In this document: positions 57,581 to 59,571 of the stretch, in pieces
How the letters are laid out: each line of letters opens with the position of its first letter
Position numbering within the stretch: the first letter of the stretch is position 1
Source of the DNA: Levilactobacillus brevis ATCC 14869 = DSM 20054
Lineage (GTDB): Bacteria > Bacillota > Bacilli > Lactobacillales > Lactobacillaceae
DNA: 64,000 bases
Assembly: GCF_001433855.1 (NCBI RefSeq)
Contig: NZ_AZCP01000001.1
Span: 219,722-283,721, forward strand
Direction: 5' to 3'
The notes under the pieces: model-generated
Databases searched by the model: none
Seen by the model: the letters and a program-made list of their open reading frames with translations, nothing else
What the model was told of the DNA's origin: nothing
Translations under genes and position numbers: made by a program

Positions 57581-57635
57581 AATATAAAAGAGGTTCAGGT
57601 GCGTGTCCTCGACGCACCTGAACCTCTTTTATATT
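57581..57635. terminator. 24-bp perfect inverted repeat, probably a bidirectional terminator
   Basis: The left arm 57581-57604 and right arm 57612-57635 are perfectly complementary with a 7-base loop. The arms start with A-rich and end with T-rich sequence, as in terminators, between cfa and a convergent small gene. Its length is unusual. Confidence 0.7.
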
Positions 57636-57810
57636 AGCTCTATTATCTAGAATCAAAGCCAAGATAATAATTATAATTGCCCAGACAAAGCATCTGAGTT
57701 TATCATCACTCCATCCACCTTATTTGTGGATCGAGCCCGTCACTTGCTCTCCTTCATAAGTTCCTCATGACTAGGTAGTCAGCTTTTAATGTCATCAGGT
57801 CTGAACGTAT

Positions 57811-57854
57811 GCTTCTCCCCGGAGTCGAACCGAGAAAAAGTACCAGATAGAAGC
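57811..57854 (-). other. tRNA acceptor/T-arm-like fragment
   Basis: On the minus strand: GCTTCTA (57848-57854), about 13 bases, then a 5-bp stem CTCGG with CCGGG enclosing the loop TTCGACT, then GAGAAGC, which pairs with six bases of the first segment. This looks like a tRNA lacking D and anticodon arms, or an attachment-site copy of a tRNA 3' end. Confidence 0.4.
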
Positions 57855-57855
57855 T

Positions 57856-58107
57856 TTATTCAAAGTGGCACTTAGTGTACCCATGCTTTTTTGCCCAGCG
57901 CAATGTAACATGTTTCTTGTAGGAGGCACGTTTCAACCCGCGACAATGCTTGGAATAGTGATACTTCATACCATGTTTAGGCGCAATCCACACATAGGTG
58001 GTTTTTGCATGAGCAACGGTGGCATTCGGAACAACGGGGACTGTACCACCCATGAATAGGGTGAAGCTCAAAGCAATGATTGTGATGTTCTTTTTAATAT
58101 TTTTCAT
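57856..58107 (-). CDS. Small secreted protein with H-x4-C-x-G-L motif
   Basis: 83 residues. Signal peptide: basic KNIKKN, hydrophobic core to about residue 28, then VAHAKTT. The mature part has YHYSKHCRGLKRASYK and AKKHGYTKCH, a His/Cys pattern found in short C-terminal modules of Firmicutes exoproteins and possibly metal-binding. Function unknown. AGGAGG lies 7 bp before the ATG. It is a monocistronic minus-strand gene in the variable region behind lepA. Confidence 0.7.
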   Translation of the reverse strand: MKNIKKNITIIALSFTLFMGGTVPVVPNATVAHAKTTYVWIAPKHGMKYHYSKHCRGLKRASYKKHVTLRWAKKHGYTKCHFE

Positions 58108-58424
58108 AAAATCCTCCTGTATTTAGTTGTTGTGTGTATCTGAAATAGTCACGATCGATTAACTAATTTTTGACACGATTCACTTTGGGTAGACTAAAAA
58201 GATAAAATATGTATATAAAAAGTAAACGAAAAAAATATTTTGTGATCTTCAAATTAGGCAATATAACTATTCTATATTAAATTTATCGTTGAATGCAACT
58301 AGTGTTTTTAACCAATTCTTAAAAAATGCCGTATGATGTAAAGATGATTTCGTGAAATCAGTTAGAGAAGCATAAAAAGAGCCATTCAAGCGATGGCTTA
58401 AATGGCTTAAACAGAAATGTTTCA
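58108..58424. other. AT-rich intergenic region
   Basis: 317 bases with no coding frame. It holds the minus-strand terminator at 58372-58397 and a plus-strand TATGAT at 58332-58337 that could start a transcript antisense to the peptide gene at 58425. Confidence 0.4.
58372..58397 (-). terminator. Terminator of the 35-codon peptide gene
   Basis: Minus strand: AGCCAT and ATGGCT (58392-58397 with 58380-58385) form a 6-bp stem followed by a T5 run. Confidence 0.6.
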
Positions 58425-58532
58425 TTAACGCTGTTCTCGTCGAGAATTGTGGATACGTTGTAGAATCAAAACAATTGATAACACATTCATCAATAGGCTG
58501 GAGAAGTTTAAAAGACGGGTGAGTTTATTCAT
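58425..58532 (-). CDS. Undescribed 35-aa hydrophobic/basic peptide
   Basis: A short frame starting MNKLTRLLNFSSLLMNVL, with a hydrophobic helix (about 8-25) and a basic tail ending RREQR. AGGAGG lies 7 bp before the ATG and a terminator hairpin follows the stop within 30 bp, so it looks like a complete small transcription unit. Size and layout fit a membrane-acting type I toxin or a peptide signal, but no family is recognised. Confidence 0.5.
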   Translation of the reverse strand: MNKLTRLLNFSSLLMNVLSIVLILQRIHNSRREQR

Positions 58533-58603
58533 TGTTAAGACCTCCTGTATTTATACTAAAAGTGTACCGAAATCGATGAGCAATTGCGAATGTTGTGCTT
58601 GGG

Positions 58604-58966
58604 TTACTCTCGTTCAGCGTCTTCAGCCAATTCTAGCCAAATCGTCAGGGGTGAGGGGATATAGTCCGGCCAATTTTCCATTTTCTTGGCACAACGTTCC
58701 AAAAGGTGGCTCTTACCTTTAAGTGCCAAATCCTCAAAGATCGTCAGGGCCTGGGTATTATCTTCTAAGTCAACTTTGAGTGTCGCAGCATTGTGACGCC
58801 ATTCTTCAATTAAATCTTGATAAATGACGATGCGACGCGCCTGAAGAATGGTGTAATCAACGCCTTCAACGTGGAGCTGTTTAACAAAACGGTCATATTC
58901 ATTGAATACAGCTGTCTGAGCACGTTGCCAGTCAGTTTCTGTAAAATCACGTTCCTCTTCTTTCAT
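58604..58966 (-). CDS. Hypothetical protein, 120 aa
   Basis: A soluble, acidic, mostly helical protein (MKEEERDFTETDWQRAQ start; Trp-rich, e.g. ENWPDYIPSPLTIWLELAED). No signal peptide or membrane segment and no recognised family. GAGGTC lies ahead of the ATG. It sits between the variable region and mscL, reading in the same direction as mscL but separated from it by over 200 bp. Confidence 0.6.
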   Translation of the reverse strand: MKEEERDFTETDWQRAQTAVFNEYDRFVKQLHVEGVDYTILQARRIVIYQDLIEEWRHNAATLKVDLEDNTQALTIFEDLALKGKSHLLERCAKKMENWPDYIPSPLTIWLELAEDAERE

Positions 58967-59152
58967 TCTGATGACCTCTAATTCCCATCTCCAATAACAT
59001 GATTTGTTATTTAAGATATTCCTAATTTGTTAAAGCATCTTGTCACAGTATAGCATTTTCAAAGGGAATGGTAAGGGGAACTTTGTGGTGAGTGATGGCA
59101 AAAATTAATCAGTGCTAGTTTAATATGTCAAGAATTCAATAGCCATCACGTA

Positions 59153-59187: not shown

Positions 59188-59571
59188 CTAATGTTCAGTT
59201 TTATCTTGTTTCAATAATTCCACAATTTCTTGCAAGTATTTTTCTTCTTGAGATGGGACGACTTCTTCAGGTTCTTCCGCCGGTTTGACGATTAGCTTAT
59301 TGATCAGTTTGATGAGTAGGAAAACAACGAACGCAATAATTAAGAAATTAATCACTGAGTTGATGAAGGCACCATAGCGGAAATGCGCGCTGCCCACGGT
59401 AAAGACCAAATTAGAAAAATCAATGCTGCCGACAAAGATCCCCAGTAATGGGTTAATGATGTTTGTGACTAAGGAATTAACAATGGCAGTAAACGCAGCC
59501 CCAACAATTACCCCAACAGCCAGATCCATGACATTGCCCCGGGCAATGAACTCTTTAAATTCTTTTAACAC
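59188..59571 (-). CDS. mscL: Large-conductance mechanosensitive channel MscL
   Basis: MscL opens under membrane tension to release solutes after osmotic downshock. 127 residues, normal length. N-terminal [29 protein letters not shown] is diagnostic, followed by a periplasmic loop and a second membrane segment (about 70-92) and a charged C-terminal helix. GTG start with AAGGAGG about 10 bp upstream. Confidence 0.97.

Follow-up and report, generated by a model that had tools for sequence, protein, structure and literature searches.

A probable 35-codon gene for a single-helix membrane peptide, with probable homologues in the parabrevis group, in Levilactobacillus brevis

We analysed a 64,000-nt stretch of the Levilactobacillus brevis ATCC 14869 = DSM 20054 genome (hereafter the window) and found that a short minus-strand frame at positions 58425-58532 (start at 58532, stop codon at 58425-58427) is very probably a gene, because of its relatives more than because of its own signals. 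Its product is a peptide of 35 amino acids (aa), MNKLTRLLNFSSLLMNVLSIVLILQRIHNSRREQR, which is predicted to form a single membrane helix. A preliminary description of this DNA had proposed an undescribed peptide gene at this place. Synteny and purifying selection in relatives, together with the lack of a match to the window peptide over any cut-off in the family libraries (Pfam, NCBIfam and others), agree with that proposal. What the peptide does is less certain, and we tentatively favour a lineage-restricted, single-span small membrane protein, confined to some species of Levilactobacillus, that would act on a larger membrane protein by contact between helices.

The frame and its signals

The frame is preceded on its own strand by a Shine-Dalgarno (SD) sequence, AGGAGG, at 58541-58546. 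This ribosome binding site (RBS) had been reported at 7 nt from the ATG, whereas the spacing is 8 nt. Behind the frame, an intrinsic terminator (58375-58407, minus strand) was recovered both by terminator scan and by folding; its 12-bp stem (58407-58380) begins 17 nt after the peptide stop and runs into the T-run CTTTTTATGC, as the preliminary description had it. This stem is the sole terminator-like site on either strand of 57800-59100, and the 3' UTR of the peptide gene folds at -18.7 kcal/mol (z -4.5). The AlphaFold model, built on three sequences, consists of one helix covering residues 3-34 (mean pLDDT 88.7), in line with the hydrophobic helix proposed earlier; such a predicted single helix is as expected for a hydrophobic peptide of 35 aa. 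The gene occurs once in the 2.47-Mb genome, on a contig of 629 kb.

We then compared these signals with chance expectation. Across the window, 15 ATG codons are preceded by a perfect AGGAGG at a distance of 5-11 nt; the 14 frames besides that of the peptide are 60-597 codons long. Markov sequence is expected to yield 3.15 such sites over the whole 64 kb, 0.65 of them with at least 30 codons. For the 13,019 intergenic bases, taken as those outside frames of at least 120 codons, the expectation is 0.10 SD-preceded ORFs of at least 30 codons, with at least one in 10% of 300 simulations. The codon usage of the peptide frame is marginal (P 0.054). By themselves, the SD and ORF signals are only moderate evidence for a gene.

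Two further motifs of the preliminary description are present in the sequence but do not rise above chance. The first is the inverted repeat TTCTCG-T-CGAGAA (6-1-6, no strand) at 58434-58446, inside the coding region. Perfect 6-bp inverted repeats were found in 190 of 638 sampled 161-bp stretches when loops of up to 8 were allowed and in 62 of 638 with loops of at most 1, and the repeat has no counterpart in the L. parabrevis and L. fuyuanensis frames. The second is the plus-strand TATGAT at 58332-58337, part of a candidate antisense promoter, TTAACC-18-TATGAT (58308-58337, 9/12). We counted five promoter-like sites where shuffled sequence gave 3.6 +/- 1.8, which places this candidate at chance level.

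A 16-bp palindrome, TGATTTCGTGAAATCA, lies at 58345-58360 in an A+T-rich gap (26.8% G+C, 58108-58379); it was rejected as a repeated operator because it has a single occurrence in the genome. A 19-mer at 58398-58416 is common to several genomes of the genus; in the two places read it overlaps no frame of at least 60 codons, and it was judged a coincidence.

Neighbourhood and relatives

On the minus strand, the gene order is mscL, a 120-aa gene, the peptide gene and a gene for an 83-aa secreted-type protein, with cfa beyond on the plus strand. The 120-aa gene (58604-58966, minus strand) lies 71 nt upstream of the peptide gene and has no family match over cut-off; it served as the synteny anchor and is a possible operon partner. 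The next gene upstream, mscL (59188-59571, minus strand), encodes a mechanosensitive channel (PF01741, 2.7e-42). A transcript shared with the 120-aa gene is possible because the strict scan found no terminator-like site between the two genes and the intrinsic terminator comes after the peptide. The 120-aa gene is present in all 35 genomes of the genus; of 29 loci with a relative of it, 28 are from Levilactobacillus or Lactobacillus sp. and one is from Secundilactobacillus.

Downstream of the 120-aa gene and in its orientation, 35-aa peptides are encoded in L. parabrevis (genome G008, locus L064; MIRKTTKCLNIISIILHLIAICVLLRTLHDERAED), L. fuyuanensis (G001, L065; MHKHTSKCLNIISIILHLVTICVLLRTLHHEREED) and an uncultured-Lactobacillus MAG (L063; MHKHTSKCLNIISIILHLATICVLLRTLHHEREED). 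The MAG locus, which is not a row of the profile, reached 77.7 bits in the profile search; it is nearly identical to that of L. fuyuanensis and adds little independence because it is so close. The RBS reads GGGGG in L. parabrevis and GGAGG in L. fuyuanensis and the MAG. All four loci have a hairpin behind the peptide stop (z -4.5, -5.0, -4.3 and -2.6), those of L. parabrevis and L. fuyuanensis having been overlooked by the terminator scan, which is strict. The gene arrangement is not tightly kept, since 730 nt including a 65-aa gene separate the 120-aa gene from the peptide in L. parabrevis and L. fuyuanensis. Between the window peptide and its relatives, the ends vary and the charge of the tail changes sign, but the core remains hydrophobic. 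The basic tail noted earlier therefore holds for the window peptide (net +3) but not for the L. parabrevis, L. fuyuanensis and MAG peptides (net -2; all hand counts).

Genus-wide, a profile search matched 5 of 35 genomes at E <= 0.1, strongly in only three, all of which are rows of the search profile itself. Scanning 66 loci locally with the profile (8,212 segments; the named loci and those of the 35 genomes are overlapping sets) brought up no further relative. The window peptide alone, searched against 58 genomes, gave nine non-self places in 7 of the 57 genomes other than its own; the matches in L. parabrevis (E 0.014) and L. fuyuanensis (E 0.135) are weak alone and their place is syntenic. 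Among 350 genomes of the family, 57 matched profile A1 at E <= 0.1, strongly only in G000, G001, G008 and G023, which are rows of A1. Among 299 genomes of the class, four matched profile A3 at E <= 0.01, one being the genome of the window and the other three amounting to the chance expectation. The closest 120-aa genes to that of the window (88%) are those of lanxiensis, mulengensis, wangkuiensis and cerevisiae, and the profile searches found no peptide match in these four species.

Three candidates were not retained. The match in G023 (L004) scores 62 against the window peptide and 35 against the L. parabrevis peptide, adjoins a frame taken by eye for an integrase, and was set aside as not syntenic. 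Its E-value with A1 is circular because G023 is a row of that profile; with A3, from which it is absent as a row, it has an E-value of 0.009. A match in G011 (E 0.037) was dropped as partial and interrupted by an internal stop, and another weak match in G001 (C51), a second one in that genome, because it belongs to a 65-aa frame.

The spot downstream of the 120-aa gene is variable, the small genes found there differing between genomes (loci L011-L047). It holds a 59-aa two-helix protein in L032, L033 and L035, secreted-type 117-aa proteins in L012 and L013, 65-68-aa genes in L028, L029, L043 and L044, and small proteins resembling the 83-aa protein in L038 and L043. In the window, the 83-aa protein (57856-58107, minus strand) ends in CRGL...WAKKHGYxxC and has two more copies in the genome, at C1:2512-2849 and C1:4271-4596 (74 and 73% DNA identity). 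Directly downstream of cfa, two exact 24-bp inverted copies (57581-57604 and 57612-57635) perhaps form a terminator.

The type I toxin-antitoxin reading

The preliminary description had seen here the layout of the TxpA/RatA type I pairs, with a possible antisense RNA overlapping that of the peptide gene at its 3' end. In such a system, the peptide would damage or depolarise the membrane and a cis-encoded antisense RNA from the plus strand would repress it. Passages of PMC8309996 describe TxpA/RatA and BsrG/SR4 of Bacillus and SprG1/SprF1 of Staphylococcus as short genes for short membrane peptides, which the present locus resembles. A type I toxin would be compatible with the size, the single helix, the charge of the tail, the strength of the SD and the terminator, and the 9/12 promoter-like site faces the 3' end of the peptide gene. 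However, the count of such sites is at chance level, and no plus-strand terminator was predicted in 57800-59100 by the scan, which is strict and missed hairpins in the relatives. Furthermore, Rfam gave no match, with none up to E 10 in 58000-59000. Room between the genes for a RatA-like RNA is not conserved either, because in L. parabrevis, L. fuyuanensis and the MAG a convergent protein frame reaches to within 46-51 nt of the peptide stop on its downstream side; this frame is alike in these three and in a hammesii locus (L059). Unlike the three known systems, the locus gives no sign of an antisense RNA or of conserved space for one and has no Rfam match, and the TxpA/RatA-type layout is not supported.

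Other features bear on a type I toxin in general. The minimum-energy fold of the mRNA (z -2.4) has four of the six SD bases in pairs, as a toxin mRNA hiding its SD would, but in the centroid fold the number is only one. According to passages of PMC8309996, a positively charged C-terminal tail is usual, not universal, in type I toxins, and the tail of Fst also contains acidic residues; the basic tail of the window peptide is not conserved in its relatives. The gene is also single in its genome, and searches of 72,556 plasmid records and of phages with the window peptide gave nothing at E <= 10. In plasmids, neither the L. parabrevis peptide nor the DNA of 57600-58620 found a match. These observations weaken the toxin idea, and we regard a type I toxin as unlikely.

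The Fst/Lpt toxins of lactic-acid bacteria include Lpt, a plasmid-borne peptide of 29 aa from L. rhamnosus (passages of PMC8309996; also PMC6811638). The window peptide resembles them in being short, in its one helix and charged tail, and in its occurrence in lactobacilli; in contrast, it is encoded by a single copy on the 629-kb contig, and it has no plasmid match and no Pfam or NCBIfam match. For Fst/Ldr toxins, these two libraries gave nothing up to E 10, a search in which the HMMER filters drop most weak matches. PADLOC gave no match for the window peptide. Several weak hits fell below cut-offs and were rejected: phrog_13707 for the window peptide (E 0.12), TMEM107, DUF6728 and CD225 (E 0.04-0.08) and TolA (E 0.19) for the L. 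parabrevis peptide, and CD225 for the L. fuyuanensis peptide (E 0.14).

Hol_Tox (PF16935) is a family of putative holin-like toxins. Its members are likewise short (about 28-39 aa in the peptides read), with one hydrophobic helix and a polar tail, but the window peptide lacks the Hol_Tox pattern SV..A..LM..FG. Membership was considered on account of weak matches at L003, L009 and L010, three of the nine non-self places mentioned above, which in single-sequence comparison score 63, 60 and 51 against the window peptide, similar to the syntenic relatives (64 and 56), and on account of an hhalign comparison of the two alignments (E 3.9e-4, probability 36%). It did not withstand a profile test with decoys: the profile of 30 Hol_Tox peptides gave the window peptide 6.0 bits, while decoy transmembrane (TM) segments and shuffles both reached up to 9.4. 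Moreover, two Levilactobacillus Hol_Tox peptides score 24 and 27 against the window peptide, which is background, and Pfam returned no Hol_Tox hit for it. Given the high single-sequence scores and the suggestive hhalign result, a distant kinship to Hol_Tox may exist, but membership by profile was not found. Hol_Tox peptides are frequent in Levilactobacillus, being over cut-off in 23 of 35 genomes, several on short contigs; the genome of the window has no Hol_Tox match at E <= 0.01.

Similarity, selection and a possible function

The frame in the window could also be a chance ORF or a decaying remnant that is no homologue of the parabrevis-group peptide. This explanation is favoured by an identity of only 29-32% between the window peptide and those of L. 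parabrevis and L. fuyuanensis, by the marginal codon usage, by the rate of comparable ORFs in the intergenic simulations and by the absence of the peptide from the nearest species. Conversely, the frame matches its relatives in SD, length, strand, place and terminator. The Smith-Waterman score is 64 against the L. parabrevis peptide, where the best of 218 TM-segment decoys reached 43. When the window peptide was shuffled 50,000 times with residue classes preserved, 3 shuffles attained the score observed with L. parabrevis, compared with 160 for L. fuyuanensis and 195 for the MAG. BLASTP aligned the L. parabrevis pair differently, in a shifted register, and 3 of 61 control queries scored at least 18 bits among the 66 loci, where the real best match has 18.0. 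The match convinces only when place, strand, length and signals are considered with it. A chance or remnant frame appears quite improbable.

Conservation of the frame at third codon positions in relatives had been set beforehand as a test, and the parabrevis group shows the corresponding pattern. L. parabrevis and L. fuyuanensis differ by 21 substitutions, distributed 9/3/9 over the codon positions (sd 10.5, nd 10.5, dS 0.65, dN 0.14, dN/dS about 0.22). At most eight amino-acid changes without a stop arose in 0.3% of random placements (P 0.003). The values are dS 0.75 and dN 0.16 between L. parabrevis and the MAG, and dS 0.14 and dN 0.01 between L. fuyuanensis and the MAG. Judged from these substitutions, the L. 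parabrevis/L. fuyuanensis peptide is under purifying selection, a result that covers only the parabrevis group.

A new, fast-evolving Levilactobacillus family of chromosomal membrane peptides, acting as type I-like toxins under a novel control, with a tail that flips its charge and a distant origin in Hol_Tox, would be a very unlikely further reading. A secreted or signalling peptide, such as a leaderless bacteriocin-like or pheromone precursor, would suit a short, hydrophobic, charged and lineage-restricted peptide with changing ends in a lactic-acid bacterium, but is highly improbable given the lack of a family match over cut-off, the unconserved net charge and the four neighbours scanned (cfa and mscL identified, the 83-aa and 120-aa genes without a family), among which no transporter or immunity gene was seen.

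We favour, tentatively, the small membrane protein that modulates a larger one, in view of the lack of a conserved antisense RNA, of a conserved tail charge and of a family match. The peptide could be translated from the end of a transcript that also carries the 120-aa gene, and would insert, as the model suggests, as one transmembrane helix with short charged ends. It may then contact a larger membrane protein helix to helix as a small accessory or modulator subunit; MscL is a candidate partner by position only. AcrZ, KdpF and MgtS are small membrane proteins with a single span, each of which modulates a larger membrane protein. The window peptide resembles them in size, in its one helix and in its short charged ends, a likeness of description. 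Small membrane proteins restricted to one lineage form a known class, of which this peptide would be an undescribed member; our literature search, which covered titles and abstract openings rather than the sequence itself in print, found none that names it.

These observations add another probable gene shorter than annotation normally reports, found through its position and the pattern of change in relatives, and indicate that a family of 35 residues, at about 30% identity, is within reach of a search guided by synteny to a conserved anchor. Should the peptide indeed act as a modulator of a membrane protein, or prove toxic, the regulators of food lactobacilli would gain a lineage-restricted member.
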